Positions 2,878 to 45,307 of a stretch of 52,640 bases of DNA are shown here, in pieces. The DNA comes from a virus. The number at the start of each line of letters is the position of its first letter. Positions within the stretch are counted from its first letter, which is position 1. The notes beneath the pieces are model-generated. The model was not told the origin of the DNA. It ran no database searches and saw nothing but the letters and a program-made list of their open reading frames with translations. Where the stretch lies: positions 1 through 52,640 of IMG/VR virus record IMGVR_UViG_3300048026_001019; one strand, given 5' to 3'. A program made the position numbers and the translations under genes.

Positions 2878-4827
2878 CTATTTTTTAAGTTTGTTAAACA
2901 AAGTGTCACCGTCTTGTTCACTGTTTTGTGTATAGCCTTGTTCAGATACTGCTTGGTACTTATCAATAAACTCTTTTTCTTCCCAAGGTAGTGAATCTAT
3001 TACACCTTTTGTGTACAAGTTCTTGTAGTGTTTAAGAGTTAACGAAGGATTTTCAGCTTTCCAATGTGTCCTTGCGGCAACATGATCGGCATCATTTTCT
3101 TTTTCTTCAAGATCCTTTAAACGTTCCGATGATTCTACTTTTTTTTTAGTTTCTGGTTTCTCTCTTTCTTGCCATTCTTCATCAATCTGCATATTGATAG
3201 CTGGCTGAATTTCTTTTGGAACTAATTCTTCTGCTTTTAATTCTTCAGTAAGATCAAATTTTGGTGGAACTAATTCTTCTGCTTCCATTTGTTCTTTTAC
3301 TTGGTCTTCATCTACTTTTATTGAAGGAGTAGTCTTAGCTATTTCGTAAACTACATCGTCTCCCAAAAGCGTGGTTCCAGGCTGTCCCCCAGCATCGATC
3401 TCAGCTCGTCTACTGTCAGAGCCGGTGTCTTCTTCGACATCTGTTTGTTCTTGTTTTTGATTATCTGTTTCTGCGGCGGCTGGCTGTGTAGATTCATCAT
3501 CGACACTATCAGGTGCTTCATTGTCATTGACATCTTTTTCTCCCTCTGGTCCAGGATTATTAACTATAGCTTGTGCCCTTTTATGTTCATAGTCATCCCA
3601 GTCGAAAACGTCTTTCTTTTTTTCTTTTTGTTTTCTTAGATTTTCAAAAGTATATTGACTTGCAATTAAAAGTAAAACTGCTAACGGATCAAATACGAAT
3701 ATTATTAGTAGAATTACCCAACGTACTGCTTCTTCAAGTAAGTTTTGATCTGCTTCTTCTCCGTATACAAATTCAGCGATATATTTAATAGGACCTACTT
3801 CAGCTTCTAGCTTTCTATACTCTGCTTCAAGTGCATACTTCTCTTCTGTTAATTCATCTAACTCTGTATTTGCATTTCTTATTCTTGCAGTCTGCTCATC
3901 AACGATTGCATCAATATCTTCAGCATTAGATTCCACCCTACCAATTTGTTCACGTAATCTTGATATTAGTTCATTACTGTTTGCTATTTCTGTTTCTGCT
4001 AATCCACGCTGTCTTATAATTTCTGCTCTAGCGGCAGTGACAACAGGTGATTCTAAAGACTGTAGTTCATCCATTTTATTGAGTAAGTCAATACGTTCTT
4101 GATTCTTTTGATCTCTAAACTCTTGTACCTTTGCCGCAGTTCTTCTACCATAGCTACCGTCAGCACTTGCTCCAATAAGACCCTGTGCTTTCTTAATACT
4201 ATCTCTATCTCCTGCGTTTACATAAGATTCTAGTTGTGCTAAAGATGCGGCTATTGCATCTACTTGATTTTGATAAGGTTCTAATCTCTTTTGTATTTTA
4301 GTTTCTTCAAGAGAAATAACTTCTAGTTGCTCATTAATAGCAGGCTGTATTCTTGAGTATGCACTATCTATTCTTGCTTGCTCTCTGTCAATTTGTTCTT
4401 GAATAGTATTGTCTTGGGTGTTTGTACTAGACTCTGCTTTTGTTATCTGTGCTTCTGCTCTAACAATAATTGCTTCTTGTCTAGCAATTTCAGTGGTAAT
4501 GCGTTCAACTTGTGCAATACTTTCTTCACCTGCACTTGTTTGTTCTATGTGTGCTTTGGATAAGAATCCAAAGATACCCATGCTTGTAATAAACATTAAC
4601 AGTATAACAGCAAAAGACAAGTAAGACTTTAGCCACCATACTGTTTCTTTCCAGTACCTATGTAACCATACCGCGGTCACTAGCTTACCTACTTCAAGTA
4701 CTCCGCCCATAATCATAATTGGCAATGCTGCCGCGGCAAAGATTGCAACCAATCCTACTACACTATAATAGATAGCTACAGTAGAGATGGTCAGAGCCGT
4801 AAGTAAAACAAGTAACCCTAATAACAT
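2878..4827 (-). CDS. Large coiled-coil membrane protein with peptidoglycan-binding-like motif
   Basis: 649 residues. Two or three N-terminal transmembrane helices (about 1-90), a long Gln/Glu/Ala-rich coiled coil (about 100-350), another membrane segment (V-I-L-L-I-I-F-V-F-D-P-L-A-V-L-L-L, about 367-385), and an acidic, charged C-terminal tail. Within the coiled coil, A-D-G-S-Y-G-R-R-T-A-A-K-V-Q-E-F matches the D-G-x-x-G-x-x-T-x-x-A-V-x-x-F signature of PG_binding_1 domains, suggesting wall contact. A strong AGGAG lies 7 nt before the ATG. A spanin- or wall-anchoring-like role is only a guess. It sits next to the SleB hydrolase. Confidence 0.75.
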   Translation of the reverse strand: MLLGLLVLLTALTISTVAIYYSVVGLVAIFAAAALPIMIMGGVLEVGKLVTAVWLHRYWKETVWWLKSYLSFAVILLMFITSMGIFGFLSKAHIEQTSAGEESIAQVERITTEIARQEAIIVRAEAQITKAESSTNTQDNTIQEQIDREQARIDSAYSRIQPAINEQLEVISLEETKIQKRLEPYQNQVDAIAASLAQLESYVNAGDRDSIKKAQGLIGASADGSYGRRTAAKVQEFRDQKNQERIDLLNKMDELQSLESPVVTAARAEIIRQRGLAETEIANSNELISRLREQIGRVESNAEDIDAIVDEQTARIRNANTELDELTEEKYALEAEYRKLEAEVGPIKYIAEFVYGEEADQNLLEEAVRWVILLIIFVFDPLAVLLLIASQYTFENLRKQKEKKKDVFDWDDYEHKRAQAIVNNPGPEGEKDVNDNEAPDSVDDESTQPAAAETDNQKQEQTDVEEDTGSDSRRAEIDAGGQPGTTLLGDDVVYEIAKTTPSIKVDEDQVKEQMEAEELVPPKFDLTEELKAEELVPKEIQPAINMQIDEEWQEREKPETKKKVESSERLKDLEEKENDADHVAARTHWKAENPSLTLKHYKNLYTKGVIDSLPWEEKEFIDKYQAVSEQGYTQNSEQDGDTLFNKLKK

Positions 4828-4837
4828 GTGATTTCTC

Positions 4838-5407
4838 CTATTCCCAACGGTAGAATATGTGTTTGCCGATTCTACCCGTTAAATGTAAACCACTCGCCCA
4901 GCGAGGATTTACGTATTCGGCATGATAATGTGTTGATCCTTCTGTAATTCCAACATACTTCTTTTCCCAAATCATCAAGTATGCCATATTTTGTACTAAG
5001 TGCCAAAGGTCTTGATTCTGTGGTAAATCGTGTTTGCCATCACAGTACCAACTAAATTGACACTTGTGTCTAATAGGATTATAAACCCTTTCTGATAATG
5101 GCAAGTCGGGATCCTTTTTAGTTTTCCAACTTTCTCTCACAGGTCCTTGACGTATCACTTCACAAATAGTATCTGGATATCTTGAATCCTTAACCCTATT
5201 TAGTACCACGTCACTTACTCCTGCCATATCTGCTACACTACTACCACGTGATTCAAAATACATGTTTAGTGCAAGGCAGTATTCTTGCGGACGATCTTCT
5301 TCCGCATATAGTTCATTAATTCCAATTGTTGAACCTGCTACCGCAAGACCAAAATTAGACAGTACGCCTATAATAGTAATAGTCGCAACTCGAGATATAT
5401 GTTTCAT
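4838..5407 (-). CDS. Cell-wall hydrolase, SleB (Hydrolase_2) family; probable endolysin
   Basis: 189 residues with an N-terminal hydrophobic signal or anchor segment (about 8-25). The catalytic core starts C-L-A-L-N-M-Y-F-E-S-R-G (the A-x-x-x-Y-x-E-(A/S)-R motif with the catalytic Glu) and continues with V-V-L-N-R-V, C-Q-F-S-W-Y and T-H-Y-H-A. The family cleaves peptidoglycan glycan strands as lytic transglycosylase or amidase. ATG 5407 is chosen because GAGGA precedes it; an in-frame ATG at 5446 is possible. With a membrane leader it could be exported by Sec (SAR-endolysin style). The holin-like gene is close by. Confidence 0.82.
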   Translation of the reverse strand: MKHISRVATITIIGVLSNFGLAVAGSTIGINELYAEEDRPQEYCLALNMYFESRGSSVADMAGVSDVVLNRVKDSRYPDTICEVIRQGPVRESWKTKKDPDLPLSERVYNPIRHKCQFSWYCDGKHDLPQNQDLWHLVQNMAYLMIWEKKYVGITEGSTHYHAEYVNPRWASGLHLTGRIGKHIFYRWE

Positions 5408-7335: not shown

Positions 7336-7370
7336 AAAAAAGAGTGTGGCATCTCTGCAACACACTCTTT
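7336..7370 (-). terminator. Terminator of the tmRNA gene
   Basis: Minus strand stem AAAGAGTGTG/CACACTCTTT followed by a T-run, directly after the tmRNA coding piece. Confidence 0.85.
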
Positions 7371-7685
7371 AGTGCTATTTTTGGTAACAAGGTATAACTA
7401 CCCCGTAACAGCCTAAGCCGCTAATGCCATCTCTGGCGCATAATTGTCATTTGCAATTATAAGTTTCGTTCGCGTTAACCGAGCTTACATCCGGGCAACT
7501 CCACTCTCCTATTAACTAACAGTCGATCCTATTTCGACCCCATCATAAACACACGACTTGCACCCTTTCGAGGTCTTGTCCTATACACAGAAAAGCAGGT
7601 GTATCTACTCTCATGTGCTTATGGTGGAGTCGCCGGGTACCGCCCCCGGGTCCTGTCTAGCGTTTGAATTGCTTCAACGTTACAA
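7371..7685 (-). ncRNA. ssrA: Permuted two-piece tmRNA (alphaproteobacterial type)
   Basis: The order on the minus strand is acceptor piece, intervening spacer, coding piece, as in permuted alphaproteobacterial ssrA. The acceptor piece ends CGACTCC-ACCA at 7622. After about 80 nt of spacer, the coding piece begins GGGGTCGAAATAGGATCGAC at 7541. GGGGTCG pairs with CGACTCC over 7 bp, including a G3-U70 wobble, the alanine identity element. CTGTTAG in the coding piece can pair with CTAGACAG in the acceptor piece as helix 2. The tag reads ANDNYAPEMALAA. A consensus promoter and a strong terminator frame the gene. tmRNA rescues stalled ribosomes and tags products for proteolysis. Confidence 0.93.
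7413..7454 (-). other. tmRNA proteolysis-tag reading frame (ANDNYAPEMALAA)
   Basis: Resume codon GCA at 7454-7452 and stop TAG at 7415-7413. The 13-residue tag begins A-N-D-N-Y and ends A-L-A-A, the hydrophobic degron expected for ClpXP/ClpAP recognition. Confidence 0.9.
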
Positions 7686-7690
7686 ATATA

Positions 7691-7719
7691 TTTATAACAC
7701 AGAAATTGTTATATGTCAA
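7691..7719 (-). promoter_or_regulatory. Sigma-70-like promoter of the tmRNA gene
   Basis: Minus strand TTGACA (7714-7719), 17-nt spacer, TATAAA (7691-7696). Predicted start about 7684, just before the acceptor piece. Confidence 0.82.
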
Positions 7720-7828
7720 CCTCGATTTCAATCACAGAGGATTGCTCGCCTCTCTTATGGAATCTGCAGAGTTCTGGATCTTCTTCAATAAACCAGCCCA
7801 AAGCGATCAACGCACAGTTTATGACAAT
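7709..7828 (-). CDS. Possible small membrane ORF, start unclear
   Basis: An open frame that reads I-V-I-N-C-A-L-I-A-L-G-W-F-I-E-E-D-P-E-L-C-R-F-H then a polar tail, ending inside the tmRNA promoter. The composition looks like real protein, but the only ordinary start codon (TTG 7810) lies inside the hydrophobic segment and no ribosome-binding site is visible. It overlaps the end of a 22-aa ORF in another frame. A frameshifted or degraded two-helix protein is possible. Confidence 0.3.
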   Translation of the reverse strand: MVINCALIALGWFIEEDPELCRFHKRGEQSSVIEIEVDI

Positions 7829-30776: not shown

Positions 30777-31562
30777 ATGCCGGGTATTTTAGATCTCGAT
30801 ACATATAATCGATCATTACTTTTCGCGAAGTTATCAAAGTATGCTTATTATAACATCAATAGTGCAAAAAAGCAAGCGAAAAAATTAGGTTTTACAACAA
30901 CAGAATTTTATGACCGGGACGGTGCTCAAGCATATAGATTCCAAAATAAAACAGATATGGTTATAGCTTGTAGGGGAACACAGCCTACACAGTATAGTGA
31001 TATACAAGCAGACTTAAAGGCAATGCCTGTCGTTGCTGAAACTGTGTCCAGAGTGCATAGAGGTTTTAAGGACGAAGTAGACGACTTATGGCCTATGATA
31101 CTAGAAGATATACAACGTAAAGCAAATGCAAAGAAAACTGTTTGGTTCTGTGGACATTCGTTAGGTGCAGCTATGGCAACTATTATGGCTAGCAGATGTT
31201 ATCATCATGAAGGTATTCCAAATCCGTATGAGCTTTACACTTACGGTAGTCCAAGAGTAGGATGGACCAAGTATTGTACATCTTTAGGCGTCAGACATAT
31301 TAGATGGGTAAACAATAACGATATAGTCACAAGAGTTCCATTAAACATAATGGGATATAGACACCATGGCATGGAACACTATCTAAACACTTGGGGCAAT
31401 GTTCGTACACTCACAGGATGGCAAAGAACTAAAGACAGGTTTAGAGGTATTTGGAGAGGTATCAAAGTAATGAAAGTTGATAGTTTCTCAGATCACTCTA
31501 TTGATGCTTATGTAATGCACATTAAAAAAGCCGCTGAAGGTATGGAAACACCGCAAGTTTAG
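30777..31562 (+). CDS. Class 3 lipase-like alpha/beta hydrolase
   Basis: 261 residues. The nucleophile elbow is [12 protein letters not shown] (about 126-137). V-I-A-C-R-G-T-Q-P is the oxyanion-side strand, Y-G-S-P-R-V-G a typical Lipase_3 motif, N-N-D-I-V-T-R-V-P supplies the acid and later H residues the base. No signal peptide. AAGGAGG lies just before the ATG. Possible membrane lipid turnover at lysis. Confidence 0.85.
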
Positions 31563-32497
31563 TCAAACAGTGAACTTACGCTTTCTTCGTTAGTAACTCT
31601 ACGAATAGCTTCACCGAATAGTGTTCCAACACTTACTTCACGCAATTTCTTAAGTTTACTAAAGTCCCTAGTGTTGATACTGTCAGTAACTACTAGTTCA
31701 TCAAGTACACTCTTTTCTACACGTTTAACTGCTTCTCCACTTAGCACTCCGTGTGTAATATAAGCTCTAACACTTAATGCTCCTGCATCCATAATAGCTT
31801 GTGCCGCACCACATAGTGTTCCTCCGCTGTCTACAATGTCATCTACTAGAATAGCATGCTTGTCTTTCACATCACCAATTAGTGCCATTACTTCACTAAC
31901 ACCTGCTTGTGGTCTACGCTTATCAACGACAGCAATATCTCCATGAAACATATCAGCAAACTTTCTAGCACGAACTGCACCGCCTGCATCAGGCGAAACA
32001 AAGACAGTGCCTTGATTAACATTAACATGTGATCTAATATCATCTGCAAATACGATACGGCTTGTTAAATCGTCCACTGGAATATCAAAGAACCCCTGTA
32101 TTTGTCCTGCATGTAAATCCATTGTAAGTATTCTATCTGCGCCAGCTGTTGTAATTAAATTAGCAACCAACTTAGCAGTAATAGGTGTACGACTTGCACT
32201 CTTACGATCTTGACGAGCATAACCAAAGTAAGGAATAACTGCTGTAATACGACTAGCACTACTACGCTTGGCAGCATCAATCATTATAAGCAATTCCATT
32301 AAACTATCGTTTACAGGAGTTGATGTTGAGTTACAAATAAAAACATCTTCTCCCCTTATATTTTCTAAAAACTCTACACTGGTTTCTCCGTCCGCAAAGT
32401 TACTTACTTTAGCAGGAACTAATGTGGCAAAACAGTGTTGTGCGATTCTATCAGCTAACTCCGGATTCGCATTGCCAGTTATTATCTTCATCTTCAA
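31559..32497 (-). CDS. prs: Ribose-phosphate pyrophosphokinase (PRPP synthetase)
   Basis: 312 residues, full length. R-Q-D-R-K catalytic flexible region, [11 protein letters not shown] metal/ATP motif, V-V-D-K-R-R-P and the PRPP-binding [11 protein letters not shown]. It makes PRPP for de novo and salvage nucleotide synthesis. Co-transcribed with the nucleotide-sugar dehydrogenase (4-nt overlap). Confidence 0.95.
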
Positions 32498-35574: not shown

Positions 35575-35627
35575 TGTGGCCGTACACTGACGAAGAATCA
35601 GATTGGCTAGATGATAAAAAGAGTTGA
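35574..35627 (+). CDS. Leader-like micro-ORF (17 aa) overlapping the alternative oxidase start
   Basis: M-W-P-Y-T-D-E-E-S-D-W-L-D-D-K-K-S, coupled by TAATG to the gene before and overlapping the oxidase ATG by 17 nt in another frame. It may serve translational coupling of the oxidase. Confidence 0.45.
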   Translation: MWPYTDEESDWLDDKKS

Positions 35628-36204
35628 CATCGCCGATAGTATAGCGTTTAGGCTTACAATGATGTTTAGATGGTTTGCAGATACTTTTTTTGCAAAGCGT
35701 TATGGACACAGAGCAGTAGTACTTGAAACTGTTGCCGGAGTACCAGGTATGGTAGCAGGCATGTGGAATCACTTACGTAGCCTAAGAAAGATGCAACCTG
35801 ATGAGCGAGGCTGGATTAAGACTTTACTAGACGAAGCTGAAAACGAACGAATGCATTTAATGATCTTCATTGAAATTGCAAAACCAAATATCTTTGAAAG
35901 ATTATTAATTGCATTTGCTCAGCTTGTTTTTTGGCACTTCTATCTAGTTTTATACATTTTCTTTCCAGGCACTGCACACAGGATGATAGGATACTTTGAA
36001 GATCAAGCTGTTATTTCATACACACAATATCTAGATGAAATAAAAAGTAGCAAGGTTGAAAATATTCCTGCTCCGCAAATTGCAATAGATTATTACGGAT
36101 TGAAAAAAACTGCAAAGTTAAGTGATGTAATTAAAAAAGTAAGAGCTGACGAGCAAGGGCATGCAGATGTTAATCACGGAATGGCTGACCAAATAAACAA
36201 ATAA
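35611..36204 (+). CDS. aox: Alternative oxidase (ubiquinol oxidase, diiron)
   Basis: 197 residues. All six diiron ligands of AOX can be placed: L-E-T-V-A-G-V-P-G-M-V (Glu), L-L-D-E-A-E-N-E-R-M-H-L (Glu and His), F-E-D-Q-A-V-I-S-Y-T (Glu) and V-R-A-D-E-Q-G-H-A-D-V-N-H (Glu and His). Two hydrophobic helices of the interfacial-membrane type sit around residues 104-130. AOX moves electrons from quinol to oxygen without proton pumping, so it would bypass complexes III/IV. Cyanophages carry the relative PTOX. Last gene of a micro-ORF operon. Confidence 0.93.
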   Translation: MIKRVDIADSIAFRLTMMFRWFADTFFAKRYGHRAVVLETVAGVPGMVAGMWNHLRSLRKMQPDERGWIKTLLDEAENERMHLMIFIEIAKPNIFERLLIAFAQLVFWHFYLVLYIFFPGTAHRMIGYFEDQAVISYTQYLDEIKSSKVENIPAPQIAIDYYGLKKTAKLSDVIKKVRADEQGHADVNHGMADQINK

Positions 36205-36641: not shown

Positions 36642-37259
36642 ATGTTTAGTAATATATTCAAAGACGTTAATATGACGTTGGTACGTAACCTAGTCATATT
36701 ACACACCGCGGTAATTGCACTCAGCAACTACCTTGTTACAATTAGATTTAATGTATTTCCAGGAGCAGACCTACCATTGTTTGGAGAGTTTCCGTTAGCA
36801 GCAGCGGCGTTTACTTTTCCTATTGTTGTAGTAGCTACTGACCTTACAGTTAGACTAGTTGGCAAAGAAGCAGGACGAGCTGTTGTTGCAATGGCAATTA
36901 TTCCTGCGATTGTTGCTTCTGTGCTTGTATTATTAGCACTAGGTGATGAACATGCATATCGTGTAGGTTTAGCTAGTGGTACTGCTTATGCAATTGGTAC
37001 TATGCTTGACGTATACGTATTCCAACACATTCGTGAAAGAATGTCAGCTTGGTGGATAGCCCCTGCAGTTTCGACTGTTGCCGCTAACATCATTGATACT
37101 TACGCATTCTTTTACACAGCGTTTTATCCTGCACCATGGGTTGCAGACGTAGCGTTTAATAATACACTAACAAAAATTGTAGTAGGATTAATTGTATTCC
37201 TACCTGCATATGGTTTATTACTTAATGCACTACAAAAACGAACAACTAAAGAAGAGTAG
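36642..37259 (+). CDS. yhhQ: YhhQ/Vut_1-family queuosine-precursor transporter
   Basis: 205 residues with about six transmembrane helices. F-T-F-P-I-V-V-V-A-T-D-L-T-V-R-L-V-G-K-E-A-G-R is the family signature (D-L-x-x-E-x-x-G-x-x-x-A-x-R-like loop); A-Y-A-I-G-T-M-L-D-V-Y-V-F and the W-W-I-A-P...S-T-V-A-A-N-I-I-D-T segments follow. It would import preQ0/preQ1 for tRNA queuosine or 7-deazaguanine DNA modification. No other que/tgt gene is visible here. Confidence 0.82.
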   Translation: MFSNIFKDVNMTLVRNLVILHTAVIALSNYLVTIRFNVFPGADLPLFGEFPLAAAAFTFPIVVVATDLTVRLVGKEAGRAVVAMAIIPAIVASVLVLLALGDEHAYRVGLASGTAYAIGTMLDVYVFQHIRERMSAWWIAPAVSTVAANIIDTYAFFYTAFYPAPWVADVAFNNTLTKIVVGLIVFLPAYGLLLNALQKRTTKEE

Positions 37260-40306: not shown

Positions 40307-41137
40307 ATGACGCAACTAATATCGCCGAAGAAGTTTACAAACACCGTTGACCTTTTAAGGTCATTTTTTTTGGACAAAGGATTTTTAGAAGTCCATACGC
40401 AGAATAGGCTTAGTATACTAGCCGCATGCGAAGATCCATTTAATGTAGCAACATATAATTACGCAGGCCAAGTTTGGCCATTGCCGCAAACAGGCCAGAT
40501 GTGGCTAGAACATGAATTATTAAGTAGCCCCGATAGTAAGGGGTTTTTTTGTGTCTCCACTTCCTATAGACAAGAACCAAACGCTATTCCGGGTAGACAC
40601 GATATAATATTTCCAATGTTTGAATTTGAAATGCCAGGTAGTGTTGATGATCTTAAAGCAATGGAGTATGAACTATGTGAGTACTTGGGCTTTGATGCAC
40701 TAACAGAAAAAACATATAGAGAATGGCAACAGCATTGGGGTATAAGTGCAGACACTGAAATGGATGCAAGTCACGAACTAGCAATGGAGATGAACTTTGG
40801 TAGTTGTTTGATTACAAACTTTCCAGAGCTAACATCACCTTTCTGGAACATGGCTAGAAACGATGATGGCAATACAGCAAAGAAAATGGATGTTATACTA
40901 GGCGGTATGGAAACTATTGGATCAGCAGAACGCTCATGCGATGTTGATATGATGCGTGATACATTCCATAGTATTGTAGATGGAGAGTATAGCGAATTAC
41001 TATACAAACTATTTGGCAAAGAACGTGTAGAAGCAGAGCTTGAAAAGTTTTTAGAGTTTGACTTTTTTCAAAGAGTAGGCGGAGGTATTGGTATTACACG
41101 TATGATACCTGCACTAGAAAAGATCAACAAGATATAA
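40307..41137 (+). CDS. Stand-alone class II aminoacyl-tRNA synthetase core, AsnRS/AspRS-like
   Basis: 276 residues. Motif 1 region F-F-L-D-K-G-F-L-E-V-H-T, then L-P-Q-T-G-Q-M-W-L, motif 2 C-V-S-T-S-Y-R-Q-E-P ... G-R-H-D-I-I-F-P-M-F-E-F-E, the class IIb block I-T-N-F-P-E-L-T-S-P-F-W-N-M, G-G-M-E-T-I-G-S-A-E-R-S and motif 3 V-G-G-G-I-G-I-T-R-M. The N-terminal anticodon-binding OB domain of AspRS/AsnRS/LysRS is absent. AsnA or EpmA-like activity is the main alternative. AAGGA precedes the ATG. A tRNA with an Asn anticodon begins 6 nt after the stop. Confidence 0.8.
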   Translation: MTQLISPKKFTNTVDLLRSFFLDKGFLEVHTQNRLSILAACEDPFNVATYNYAGQVWPLPQTGQMWLEHELLSSPDSKGFFCVSTSYRQEPNAIPGRHDIIFPMFEFEMPGSVDDLKAMEYELCEYLGFDALTEKTYREWQQHWGISADTEMDASHELAMEMNFGSCLITNFPELTSPFWNMARNDDGNTAKKMDVILGGMETIGSAERSCDVDMMRDTFHSIVDGEYSELLYKLFGKERVEAELEKFLEFDFFQRVGGGIGITRMIPALEKINKI

Positions 41138-41143
41138 GAATGA

Positions 41144-41243
41144 TCTGGGGTGGTGAAATGGTAGACACGCACGGCTGTTAACCGTGTGGTAAGTAACTCG
41201 CAAAGTATTTACCGTGGAGGTTCGAGTCCTTCCCCCAGAGCCA
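41144..41243 (+). tRNA. Unusual tRNA with anticodon GTT (Asn) and a class II-length variable arm
   Basis: 100 nt with CCA encoded. Acceptor TCTGGGG/CCCCAGA (7 bp), discriminator G. A three-pair D stem (GTG/CAC) with a Leu-like D loop (AAATGGTAGA). Anticodon stem CACGG/CCGTG, loop CTGTTAA, anticodon 41177-41179. The 29-nt variable region (41187-41215) folds as GGTAAGTA/TATTTACC (8 bp, one G-U). T arm GGAGG/CCTTC with loop TTCGAGT. Anticodon and G73 fit Asn, but ordinary tRNA-Asn has a 5-nt variable loop; the body looks like tRNA-Leu/Ser. Confidence 0.9.
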
Positions 41244-41326
41244 ACTAAATACTATACGTTCATCCCATAAAGGGACGGAAGTAGCACTAGCGAAGGAACG
41301 CACTTTAACCGCAAGGGAGAGGTGTT
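41244..41326 (+). other. Structured leader with a late-type box before a micro-ORF
   Basis: Directly after the tRNA CCA comes CTAAATACTATACG, then CCCATAAAGGGACGGAAG and CCGCAAGGGAGAGG before ATG 41327. CCC/GGG and other short stems suggest a compact fold. Possible regulatory RNA or leader; not assigned. Confidence 0.4.
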
Positions 41327-42020: not shown

Positions 42021-42355
42021 TCATAACTTTCGCCAGTTTCACGAAAGAAGTTTTCACTCCAAAACGCTTTGTCATCTATCCAAATATCGTAGTTCTCTTT
42101 TTCACCTACGCTTAGTTCATGGAACTTTGCACCCCATTTTACTAATTGGTTATTTGTTAGATTGTAATAGTCTACTCCACTAACACAACCTCTAGCTGTC
42201 ATATATTTAATTGTGTGTCCTGCGTCAAATAGTGCATTTACTTTTGCAATACGATCTGGCATTGGTATATGATTAGCATAGTCTTTTTTGCCACCGCTGT
42301 CAGGTATAATTACTTCTTTACAGATGGTGCCATCAATATCAATTACGTACTTCAA
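42017..42355 (-). CDS. HAD-type phosphatase (capsule-biosynthesis phosphatase-like)
   Basis: 112 residues. Motif I Y-V-I-D-I-D-G-T-I-C, motif II M-T-A-R-G, and W-I-D-D-K-A (acidic pair). Its small cap-less size is like polysaccharide or nucleotide phosphatases of phages. Stop/start overlap with PEPCK. A sugar-phosphate substrate would fit the operon (inference). Confidence 0.75.
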   Translation of the reverse strand: MKYVIDIDGTICKEVIIPDSGGKKDYANHIPMPDRIAKVNALFDAGHTIKYMTARGCVSGVDYYNLTNNQLVKWGAKFHELSVGEKENYDIWIDDKAFWSENFFRETGESYE

Positions 42356-43536
42356 TTCAATAATCCTTCCAAAGTTTGTAGTACTTGCTCACTGTTATCA
42401 GCTCTTCCTGTAACAATAGCATCTTTAACACATTGTCTAGTAAACTCTAACGGAAACCTTGCTCCGTCTTTGTCCATACCTGTGTTAACTAGATAGACAT
42501 TAGCTTTATGTGTGTCTATTTTATCCATTAATAAATCGCTATATTCAGAAACTGCCCTAGGCATAAAGGGCGAACCATAGCAAGGACTAAACAAAGGTTT
42601 GATTTCGTTTGTTCCTGCTTCTGTTCCTGGCATTTGACTAGTGTATCCTGTTTCAAAAAACCTACGCACTGTGTTGCCGCTTATTTTACTAATAGGTGGA
42701 AACATGCCTTTGGCATCCATTGTTAAAAAGAAAATGTTAGTAGGGTGATCAAAATCTGTTGTGTCATATGCATTTTCAACAAGGTTTAAAGGATAACTTA
42801 GCCTAGCATTAGCGGCGCCTGGGTTTTCTTCAACCAAACAATTGTTTGACCTTGCTAGCTCTACTGCATTAAAAATAGTTGGATGTGTTTCAGGTGTTAG
42901 CCCTTCGCTCTTAGCATAACACCCTGTTTCTATCATATTAACGCCTTCGTAGTTCCATGCTATTTCGTCATCACCAATTAGTTTGTAATCAGGATCGCTA
43001 GACAATGTAGTTTTACCAGTGCCACTAAGACCAAACATAAGATTAGTACTGTCCTTGTAAGTAAATGCACTACAATGCATAGGAAGTACTTTATGTTCTG
43101 GTAATTCAAAACTTACAATACCAAACACGCCTTTCTTAATTTCTCCTAAGAACGTAGTGCCTGCAATTAGCATTACATGTTCGTCTAGATGTACGTGTAT
43201 TTTAGGCTTTGACATTTCAATGTCTGTGTTATGTAGTATTGTCCAGTCAGCTGTATATTGTAATGGGTTATCAACCACAGGAAACATATTGCGTACAAAT
43301 TGTGCATGCCTGTCGTCATTTGTTTCTACTCTAAAACAAAGGCCGCAAGTATAAAACACAAGATTATGATTGTATTCTAATTCATACATATCGTTATGGA
43401 AGTCTTTAAAGTCTTGCTCATTACCAATCTTATTATACTTAGGCCTAGTAAGATCTAATGCTTCAGTACGATGTCCAAAAAAGTATTTGTTCTCCGGACT
43501 TCTACCTGTCGGGTGTGTCGTTATATTAATATTCAT
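42352..43536 (-). CDS. pckA: Phosphoenolpyruvate carboxykinase (ATP-type), shortened
   Basis: 394 residues against about 530 in cells. T-G-R-S-P-E-N-K-Y-F-F (substrate loop), G-T-T-F-L-G-E-I-K-K-G-V, M-H-C-S-A-F, kinase-1a loop G-L-S-G-T-G-K-T-T-L-S, kinase-2 L-I-G-D-D-E, G-C-Y-A-K, G-Y-T-S-Q-M-P-G-T-E and V-N-T-G-M are all retained. The N terminus and several surface segments are trimmed. It makes PEP from oxaloacetate and ATP, the entry step of gluconeogenesis. Overlaps gap by 11 nt. Confidence 0.9.
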   Translation of the reverse strand: MNINITTHPTGRSPENKYFFGHRTEALDLTRPKYNKIGNEQDFKDFHNDMYELEYNHNLVFYTCGLCFRVETNDDRHAQFVRNMFPVVDNPLQYTADWTILHNTDIEMSKPKIHVHLDEHVMLIAGTTFLGEIKKGVFGIVSFELPEHKVLPMHCSAFTYKDSTNLMFGLSGTGKTTLSSDPDYKLIGDDEIAWNYEGVNMIETGCYAKSEGLTPETHPTIFNAVELARSNNCLVEENPGAANARLSYPLNLVENAYDTTDFDHPTNIFFLTMDAKGMFPPISKISGNTVRRFFETGYTSQMPGTEAGTNEIKPLFSPCYGSPFMPRAVSEYSDLLMDKIDTHKANVYLVNTGMDKDGARFPLEFTRQCVKDAIVTGRADNSEQVLQTLEGLLN

Positions 43537-44497
43537 TTATTAATCCTATATGAGAAGCTGTATCGGCCATTCTATTACTGAATGCCCATTCGTTGTCGTA
43601 CCAGCATAATACTCTAACTAACTTCCCACAAACAAGTGTACTGTCGGCTGCAAAGATACAACTTTCGTTTGTAGTATTAAAGTCCATGCTTACTAATGGT
43701 CTAGTTTCAAAACCAATAATTCCTTTCATTTCATTTTCGCTTGCTGTTTTTACAATATCATTTACTGTATCAACATCAACATCTGCTTCGCTATAAAAGT
43801 GTAAGTCAATACAACTTACATTCGGTGTAGGTACTCTTATAGCACTTCCAATAATTTTCCCTTCCATTTCAGGTAGTACCGACTTAAGAGCCTTAGCGGC
43901 TCCTGTTGTAGTTGGTATCATACTCATTGCGGCCGCCCTAGCACGATATAAATCATCATGCCTCCTATCGATTGTAGCTTGGTCGCCTGTGTAGCTATGA
44001 ATTGTAGTCATTGAACCACGTATGATTCCTAAACTATCATTTAAAACTTTTACAATTGGGGCAAGGCAGTTTGTTGTGCAACTTGCACTACTAATGATAC
44101 TATCTTTTACTGATATATCATTATGATTAACACCATAAACAACTGTACGGTCTACATTCTTTCCCGGCGAACTTATGAGAACAGTCTTTGCACCGTTTTG
44201 AAGATGTACACTAGATTGATTCCCATCTCTAAACTGCCCTGTGCATTCTAACAAAACATCAACACCTTTCCAATTTAATAGATTAATATCCCTTGTGTGT
44301 GAGTATGTTGTAGTGTCTTTTAGTTTGCCCTTCCATCTGCCATGCACACTATCAAAATTTAACAAATGATTGTTTACATGTTCATCGCCTGTGGCGTTTA
44401 TTCTAACTAGTTCAAGGTCGTCTCTTTCGTCTGTGATGATTCGGGCTAGGCAACGACCTATCCTTCCAAAACCATTTATTCCAACTTTTGTTGTCAC
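43526..44497 (-). CDS. gap: Glyceraldehyde-3-phosphate dehydrogenase
   Basis: 323 residues. G-I-N-G-F-G-R-I-G-R NAD-binding start, catalytic S-C-T-T-N-C-L-A-P, H-S-Y-T-G-D-Q, R-R-A-A-A-style loop (R-A-R-A-A-A-M-S-M-I-P-T-T-T-G-A-A-K-A) and W-Y-D-N-E-W. Phosphorylating enzyme; works in either direction. Directly follows aldolase (adjacent stop/start). Confidence 0.96.
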   Translation of the reverse strand: MTTKVGINGFGRIGRCLARIITDERDDLELVRINATGDEHVNNHLLNFDSVHGRWKGKLKDTTTYSHTRDINLLNWKGVDVLLECTGQFRDGNQSSVHLQNGAKTVLISSPGKNVDRTVVYGVNHNDISVKDSIISSASCTTNCLAPIVKVLNDSLGIIRGSMTTIHSYTGDQATIDRRHDDLYRARAAAMSMIPTTTGAAKALKSVLPEMEGKIIGSAIRVPTPNVSCIDLHFYSEADVDVDTVNDIVKTASENEMKGIIGFETRPLVSMDFNTTNESCIFAADSTLVCGKLVRVLCWYDNEWAFSNRMADTASHIGLINEY

Positions 44498-45307
44498 TTA
44501 TGTACTCGCTTCTGTTATATCCTTTATGTTCATGCTCAGAGTCATATCAAATTCTACATCTGTTTGATGATGAAACAAACCTTCACTTAGGGCTCTACTA
44601 AAACTTGCAGTCATATTATCATTTTGTGCAAGTCGACGACATGCTTCCTCAGTAGAGTATCCTCCACTTAGACCAACAACTGCATGTACACTTTTATGTC
44701 CTATAAGGTCTTTATACATATTTGGTTGTTCAGGTAGCGTTAATTTAAGAATACATTTACCATCAAATTCATCTAAACGTTTCTTAAGTCCGTGTAGCAA
44801 GGCTATCTCTAGTCCTTGCTTGTGTTCATGTTCTATTGGAACTTCAGGCTCTACTATTGGCATAAGTTCCCATGCATGTATTTTTTTAGCTAGCTCAAAC
44901 TGCTGATCCAATACACTGTCTACTATTTCTTGAGTCTTAACAATACTACGCATCTTAGTACCTACACAGCCTTTGGCAACTGCATATGTAAGTATTTCAT
45001 TAGTATCAAAGTCTTTAAGTGTACCGTCATCTGCACAGCCACTGTCTATTTTTAGATAAGGGTGAATACCTTTTTGTCTAAGAATAGGAACCATACCTCT
45101 ATCAACTGTGTCACGATACAAAATAGCCGCCCATATACTATCATTATTAAAGTCTGGAGAGCTTACCATACGCAAACGCATATCATGTACTTTATCCATT
45201 TTATCTTCTTCAGTATACGCTTGTCCGTATCGTTCTAGTACTCCTCCTGTTGAACCACCACTGTGATCCATTGCGGCTATAAATCTACTCATATATAAGT
45301 TCTCCAT
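44498..45307 (-). CDS. Fructose-bisphosphate aldolase class I (bacterial type)
   Basis: 269 residues. A-A-M-D-H-S-G-G-S-T-G-G-V-L near the N terminus, L-K-I-D-S-G-C-A, P-I-V-E-P-E-V, Schiff-base strand I-L-K-L-T-L-P-E, then A-L-S-G-G-Y-S-like V-G-L-S-G-G-Y-S-T-E-E-A and A-S-F-S-R-A-L-S-E-G-L. It matches the monomer-type class I aldolase of Firmicutes, somewhat short. It condenses triose phosphates into FBP. Overlaps the HNH gene by 19 nt. Confidence 0.92.
   Translation of the reverse strand: MENLYMSRFIAAMDHSGGSTGGVLERYGQAYTEEDKMDKVHDMRLRMVSSPDFNNDSIWAAILYRDTVDRGMVPILRQKGIHPYLKIDSGCADDGTLKDFDTNEILTYAVAKGCVGTKMRSIVKTQEIVDSVLDQQFELAKKIHAWELMPIVEPEVPIEHEHKQGLEIALLHGLKKRLDEFDGKCILKLTLPEQPNMYKDLIGHKSVHAVVGLSGGYSTEEACRRLAQNDNMTASFSRALSEGLFHHQTDVEFDMTLSMNIKDITEAST

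Follow-up and report, generated by a model that had tools for sequence, protein, structure and literature searches.

A phage gene pair of an AsnRS-type catalytic core and a class II tRNA with anticodon GUU, and its possible link to pyrimidine synthesis

Introduction

The closest described counterpart of the locus studied here is found in the cyanophages P-SSM2 and P-SSM7, where a gene called 'tRNA ligase' (T4-GC 194) is accompanied by tRNA-Asn. In its accessible text, the source lists T4-GC 194 by that name and discusses neither a function nor any oddity of the tRNA (PMC3037559). The gene pair in our sequence is the same, the proteins being 65-67% identical. No account of a function was found in a search of the open-access literature.

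Synthetase cores that stand alone are known from other systems. Archaeal asparagine synthetase A (AsnS-like; 3rex/3p8t) is an AsnRS-derived stand-alone core similar in size to the phage enzyme. EpmA (GenX), the EF-P lysine ligase, is a class II core without an anticodon domain that has been put to another use, the modification of a protein, and GluQRS is another stand-alone core. Class IIb synthetases have E or D before the motif 3 Arg. Among tRNAs, tRNA-Leu has A73 as its discriminator, and a tRNA that decodes AAU and AAC is expected to keep A37 (t6A).

The window, by which we mean the whole stretch of 52,640 nt of viral DNA analysed here (IMG/VR record IMGVR_UViG_3300048026_001019), had been proposed in a preliminary description to carry a private tRNA/synthetase pair. 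Below, we describe this pair and its viral and cellular relatives, and tentatively connect it with pyrimidine synthesis.

Results

The mini-AsnRS gene (positions 40307-41137, + strand; ORF list, Pfam and AlphaFold2 model) encodes a class IIb AsnRS-type catalytic core of 276 aa. The ORF matched Pfam tRNA-synt_2 (class II D, K and N) with an E value of 4e-16. Its database label is phrog_29758 ('unknown function'), and its cyanophage relatives are labelled 'tRNA ligase' T4-GC 194. The enzyme scored 32.9 bits with the curated asnS model (cut-off 342.6), 21.1 bits with NCBIfam asparagine synthetase A (cut-off 389) and 13.6 bits with NCBIfam EpmA (cut-off 286.9), below the cut-off in each case. Residues 1-274 of the AlphaFold2 model (mean pLDDT 92.3, pTM 0.90) superposed on residues 233-531 of human AsnRS (Z 27.2, rmsd 2.4, 249 aligned), and this catalytic domain was the best structural match among the matches listed, which also included AspRS (1b8a; Z 25.9), archaeal asparagine synthetase A (Z 23.8) and GenX (Z 23.5); such AlphaFold and Foldseek comparisons speak of fold only, not of function, and families missing from the structure listing could still match. 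Human AsnRS thus came out best in the comparison with AspRS, AsnRS, AsnA and EpmA that the preliminary description had proposed. Since the model covers only AsnRS 233-531, no sequence is left for an N-terminal anticodon-binding OB domain. The predicted structure supports the view that the window enzyme is an AsnRS-type core that would be unable to read the anticodon in the usual way and, together with the Pfam match, bears out its earlier description as a class IIb core without an anticodon-binding domain. A protein of Pithovirus LCPAC304 (BFVD A0A481Z9R2) is 44% identical to the phage enzyme over its fold.

The enzyme resembles AsnRS in its catalytic fold, in motif 2 R-x-E (R88-Q89-E90; codons at 40568-40576, + strand, by alignments and codon count) and in a Leu/Glu pocket of the Asn type. 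In sequence alignments, L67 and E106 pair with Leu and Glu of AsnRS, where AspRS has Lys and Asp; we take these positions to be the residues that distinguish Asn-type from Asp-type pockets, and the pairing makes Asn a likelier ligand than Asp. The phage enzyme is unlike AsnRS in its missing anticodon-binding domain, its score below the asnS cut-off, a T before the motif 3 Arg and a family-specific loop, C41-E42-D43-P44 (codons at 40427-40438, + strand, by alignments and codon count from 40307), where AsnRS and AspRS have EGG. E42 aligns with E279 of human AsnRS, which, according to an excerpt of the published account, contacts the Asn moiety of Asn-AMP (PMC10831071). The GG that follows this position in AsnRS is D-P in most of the enzyme family, and so the EGG flipping loop is not found there.

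Across 10 sequences of enzymes paired with a tRNA and 37 of stand-alone enzymes, 58 alignment columns were invariant; among these 47 sequences of both kinds, E42 and P44 never varied and D43 hardly did. Since these residues are common to the two groups, paired and stand-alone enzymes share special active-site features. An altered loop near the ligand would fit a changed chemistry common to both. When residues specific to paired or to stand-alone enzymes were compared, only weak differences were seen, none resembling a tRNA-binding patch.

A class II tRNA with anticodon GUU (41144-41240, + strand, 97 nt, discriminator G at 41240; Rfam, covariance and direct reading) starts six bases past the stop codon of the enzyme gene and scored 52.8 bits with the Rfam tRNA model over the same positions. 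Its acceptor stem has 7 bp (TCTGGGG/CCCCAGA), including U1-A72, and is followed by G73 and an encoded CCA end (41241-41243, + strand); the D stem has 3 bp. The anticodon GTT (41177-41179, + strand) lies in the loop CTGTTAA (41175-41181), which we take to be the usual anticodon loop of tRNA-Asn, with A at base 37 (41180). The giant variable arm (41188-41213, + strand) consists of an 8-bp stem, GGTAAGTA/TATTTACC (41188-41195/41206-41213), with one G-U pair, and the loop ACTCGCAAAG. The cloverleaf, perfect acceptor stem, GUU, discriminator G and 8-bp arm stem reported earlier were thus all read directly. The D arm had been called Leu/Ser-like; the class II body is indeed there, and the D arm (GGTGGTGAAATGGTAGACACG) and two unpaired bases between the variable arm and the T stem presumably make it Leu-type rather than Ser-type. 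Compared with tRNA-Asn, the phage tRNA has the same GUU, G73 and U1-A72, but differs in its long variable arm, its Leu-type D arm and, in most relatives, a pyrimidine at base 37. It shares the class II body with tRNA-Leu, and our covariance model R1 also matches bacterial tRNA-Leu genes, but GUU and G73 set it apart from them.

In 43 distinct relatives, standard pairs were found in 99.0% of alignment cells at stem positions (shuffled mean 86.0) and two-sided changes in 134 cells (shuffled mean 23.6). Such changes occurred at 19 of 28 pairs, including four of the eight pairs of the variable arm, and no shuffle reached the observed values. Judged by this covariation, the long variable arm is a real stem. 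A short class II form of the arm also occurs, in tRNAs of 82-84 nt. The case, raised in the preliminary description, that the arm is an insert to be spliced out was rejected as unlikely, since the arm covaries and shorter arms exist. ARAGORN detected the window tRNA gene but misplaced its anticodon ('Gly acc'); as it does so in giant forms, Gly, Asp or Glu labels on such genes are likely wrong. Copies of the tRNA with an extra T-stem base were seen in loci L003, L004 and L006-L008.

A protein search of IMG/VR gave at least 593 relatives of the window enzyme, the best 80 of which were taken as protein-selected loci. By the covariance model, the tRNA lay downstream in 75 of these best 80 of at least 593, with its start 8-139 nt (median 14) past the coding match. 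At one of the other loci (L039) the tRNA is cut by the contig end, two contigs end too soon (L060, L068), and at L037 and L046 no tRNA was found within 3.7 and 4.2 kb downstream of the enzyme. Conversely, searching IMG/VR for the D-arm/anticodon pattern gave a tRNA-selected set of 80 loci out of at least 119 stretches, on contigs that overlap the protein-selected set. The enzyme was directly upstream, on the same strand, in 77 of 77 testable loci among the matches listed (72 also passed a T-arm test), and the other three of the 80 start at a contig edge; no orphan tRNA was therefore seen among the matches listed. The preliminary description had suggested looking for the same pair in related contigs and had allowed that it might not be conserved there; the counts of 75 in the best 80 of at least 593 and 77 of 77 among the matches listed, and the cyanophages below, show the opposite. 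We conclude that the enzyme and the tRNA almost certainly form a functional unit.

In INPHARED, relatives occurred in nine of 50,697 records, namely the entries of P-SSM2, P-SSM5 and P-SSM7 and three huge-phage records. The tRNA is directly downstream of the enzyme in all three cyanophages. The viral tRNAs compared have an encoded CCA, which is absent in P-SSM2, P-SSM5 and P-SSM7, whose tRNAs end with G and then TTT. In the P-SSM2 record, the annotated tRNA-Asn site differs from the site given by ARAGORN and the covariance model. The huge phages LR756501 and LR756508 had no adjacent tRNA and no match to the tRNA pattern anywhere in the record. At L085, in a 735-kb phage, a hairpin-rich stretch closed by 7 bp lies upstream of position 3001, before the enzyme gene; it was not recognised as a tRNA.

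GUU, U1-A72 and G73 were present in all 75 tRNAs found among the best 80 of at least 593 protein relatives. Base 37 behaved differently. Among 40 distinct tRNAs of this protein-selected set (best 80 of at least 593), it was U in 30, A in nine and C in one, and in the tRNA-selected set a pyrimidine was found in 61 of 74 tRNAs (not distinct; among the matches listed). All 130 other distinct tRNAs found by ARAGORN in the same loci, used as controls, had a purine there (100 A, 30 G). An enzyme unable to read the anticodon in the usual way implies that GUU is kept by something else, either the ribosome or a host charging enzyme.

The search of GTDB genomes confirmed 105 relatives, of which the best 80 were analysed. 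Bacterial relatives are about 49-63% identical and mostly without such a tRNA. Of the best 80 of 105, five loci (L087, L088, L089, L093 and L126) carry a class II GTT tRNA, and their contigs look phage-like; no tRNA was found at L090 and L092. At L091, around 4870-4895, two acceptor strands appear to be joined with the tRNA body missing, through either tRNA loss or an assembly fault. In a tree of 53 rows, 12 paired enzymes formed one clade (99/96), and L093 and L126 belonged to another (94/96), the placing of the two relative to each other not being settled. A specific class II GTT pattern matched five of 30 records, all of them paired, and was absent in 23 of 24 non-phage genomes, the single match being the pair in the genome of L126. 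Matches to R1 in 28 of the 30 records were rejected as class II GTT tRNAs, as R1 is not specific and the bacterial top loci that were read are tRNA-Leu.

The other 72 GTDB loci of the best 80 of 105 make up the stand-alone set. A pyrD/E/F-like ORF lay within 4 kb in 19 of the 72, of which three (L094, L109 and L130) are backed by weak matches only, while L111/L113/L124 and L160/L161/L164/L165 are close relatives; the fraction was 12 of 36 for loci flanked on each side by 3.5 kb or more. Chance alone should account for a few percent, roughly estimated from three genes, eight neighbours and about 1,000 genes. In Midichloriaceae (L111), Pasteurella (L119), Myxococcota (L138) and Gammaproteobacteria (L165), Pfam confirmed OMP decarboxylase, dihydroorotate dehydrogenase and phosphoribosyltransferase as neighbours of the enzyme, and in Dependentiae (L146) it confirmed OMP decarboxylase. 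The gene order in L111 and L113 is enzyme-pyrF-pyrE-pyrD-prs. In L096, L111, L113, L119, L124, L138 and L165, the stand-alone enzyme and pyrD/E/F make up compact operons, in genomes mostly without CarB, PyrB and PyrC. Such operons possibly represent a new bacterial entry to UMP synthesis.

Early pathway genes were searched for in 30 genomes with the stand-alone enzyme, picked from the listed loci. In this sample, in which many genomes are small, reduced or host-dependent and completeness is not given, PyrB had no match at E 1e-3 in 26 of 30 genomes and none over the cut-off in 28, CarB had no match at E 1e-20 in 28, and PyrC had no match in 24 and none over the cut-off in 28 (with models other than the E. 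coli-type PyrC). All three matched in 14 of 14 control genomes. PyrE matched in 34 of 38 records and was over the cut-off in nine, including P-SSM2 and P-SSM7. In Pasteurellaceae, PyrB was over the cut-off in none of 121 genomes and the enzyme was present in three; the absence of PyrB there is thus no consequence of the enzyme. A survey of Patescibacteria found the enzyme in only three of 145 genomes, so no association was drawn. The idea that the stand-alone enzyme replaces a missing AsnRS was rejected as a general rule, a full AsnRS being over the cut-off in 10 of 29 genomes.

Some phages also have pyrimidine genes next to the pair. In L087 and in the IMG/VR loci L177-L181 (near-copies among them), the enzyme gene is immediately preceded by a short PyrD-like gene, giving the run pyrD-enzyme-tRNA, and in L093 a PyrD-like gene lies 1 kb downstream. 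Among the sequences compared, the phage PyrD-like gene is closest to PyrD of the Midichloriaceae and Rhodospirillaceae operons. A PyrE-like ORF was found within 5 kb of the enzyme in 10 of 59 phage groups, a naming that rests on a seed match, the tested representative having no Pfam match at 1e-4. In the window, a 52.6-kb fragment, no PyrD, PyrE or PyrF was found with these seeds, only PRPP synthetase.

Several other features were noted. Pfam matches in the window include the PRPP synthetase (31559-32497, - strand), IMPDH/GMP reductase (1043-2182, - strand) and a Vut_1 transporter (36642-37259, + strand), as well as a cluster of PEPCK, GAPDH and class I aldolase (42352-45307, - strand) and an alternative oxidase (35611-36204, + strand). 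A glutamine riboswitch aptamer (Rfam RF01739, 52.7 bits; 41255-41304, + strand) follows right after the tRNA, before a small ORF, and similar letters, as judged by eye, follow the tRNA in L042, L080 and L089. A permuted alphaproteobacterial tmRNA (Rfam RF01849 and RF04321) occupies 7338-7723 (- strand), and several tmRNAs lie beside the enzyme-tRNA pair in related loci.

Discussion

The explanation that we tentatively prefer, though it may well be wrong, is that the protein is an asparagine-activating enzyme for pyrimidine synthesis, to which phages have added a dedicated, perhaps non-decoding, tRNA(Asn) partner. The two genes would act as one unit, and the protein would be an asparagine-type adenylating enzyme derived from an AsnRS core. 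Since cellular family members adjoin genes for the late steps of UMP synthesis, mostly in genomes without CarB, PyrB and PyrC, we infer that asparagine, ATP and bicarbonate may be converted to dihydroorotate or its immediate precursor; dihydroorotate can formally be viewed as asparagine plus one carbonyl carbon that bridges the alpha nitrogen and the amide nitrogen. The phage enzyme would have acquired a dedicated tRNA(Asn), built on a class II body of the Leu type, and this tRNA would carry asparagine to or from the enzyme. Recognition by the enzyme would rest on the long arm and on U1-A72 and G73 of the acceptor end, GUU may be kept because a host enzyme, presumably AsnRS or AspRS with GatCAB, reads the anticodon, and base 37 would be free to drift because decoding is not the main job of the tRNA. 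Taken by themselves, parts of this proposal stand better than the whole: the enzyme probably acylates or deacylates its paired tRNA, and a contribution of the phage enzyme to pyrimidine supply has about even odds. The boldest form is rather doubtful, namely that a one-enzyme asparagine route replaces CarAB, PyrB and PyrC in scattered bacteria, and that marine phages run it with a non-decoding tRNA(Asn) supplying asparagine made or held on the tRNA, which would amount to tRNA-assisted pyrimidine synthesis.

Several observations count against the pyrimidine proposal. No pyrimidine gene was found within 4 kb in 53 of the 72 stand-alone loci, and in two genomes with the enzyme (G008 and G027) both PyrB and PyrC score over the cut-off. 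At five of the 10 PyrD-like phage loci, the stretch examined contained no enzyme, and no neighbour is common to more than 12 of the 59 phage groups. Stand-alone enzymes need no tRNA role, paired enzymes are strongly acidic (net charge -14 to -25), and the window tRNA keeps A37, as do eight others of the 40 distinct tRNAs.

The main rival, nearly as likely, is that the genes form a private AsnRS/tRNA(Asn) pair for translation, as first proposed: the anticodon-blind core would charge the class II tRNA with Asn through its acceptor end and long arm, making AAU/AAC decoding in phage mRNA independent of host charging. Tight linkage, an AsnRS-type fold and pocket, a covarying cloverleaf and the CCA encoded in viral tRNAs (not in P-SSM2, P-SSM5 and P-SSM7) are all as expected of such a pair, and so is GUU in 75 of 75 tRNAs (best 80 of at least 593), as decoding would require. 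With A37, decoding is possible for the window tRNA itself. This possible reading is weakened by the pyrimidine 37 of 31 of 40 distinct tRNAs (best 80 of at least 593), against none of the 130 controls, by relatives that have the same conserved active-site residues and sit in pyrimidine operons, and by the lack of such a tRNA in most family members. What stands of the private pair is a conserved unit with an AsnRS-type core and an Asn-type tRNA (GUU, G73 and U1-A72 in 75 of 75; best 80 of at least 593); a plain translation role is put in doubt by base 37 and by stand-alone relatives that often lie beside pyrimidine genes.

It is unlikely, by comparison, that the enzyme works in pyrimidine synthesis independently of tRNA and that a host-charged tRNA merely offsets the loss of asparagine from translation. 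The stand-alone relatives without a tRNA, the pyrD adjoining the enzyme in some phages and the retained GUU would agree with such a helper, but the tRNA was never found without the upstream enzyme in 77 testable loci (among the matches listed), and a class II body and pyrimidine 37 would be odd for it. We consider it very unlikely that the tRNA counters a host anticodon nuclease, as a tRNA(Asn) that resists cleavage or serves as a decoy, and is kept charged by the enzyme because the host cannot do so: phage tRNAs that resist nucleases are known, and an invariant GUU with a changing flank fits an arms race, but the pyrimidine setting of the relatives would be left unexplained. Least probable of all is an archaeal AsnS-like asparagine synthetase with the tRNA as a separate passenger, since the fold match (Z 23.8) and the several genomes without AsnRS or AsnB over the cut-off are set against 21.1 bits where NCBIfam asparagine synthetase A demands 389, a pocket lacking the Lys (at L67) and Asp of AspRS, and AsnB already over the cut-off in 15 of 30 genomes.

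On either view, a function that can be tested is now at hand for a gene pair that recurs in hundreds of marine viral contigs, three sequenced cyanophages among them. Should the pair serve translation, nature would have provided an orthogonal AsnRS of very small size together with a class II tRNA(Asn); code engineering could make use of it, and it would bear on how a core blind to the anticodon selects its tRNA. If the link to pyrimidines is real, UMP synthesis would have a new entry in this family, and the tRNA of the phages would act as a cofactor, not as an adaptor.
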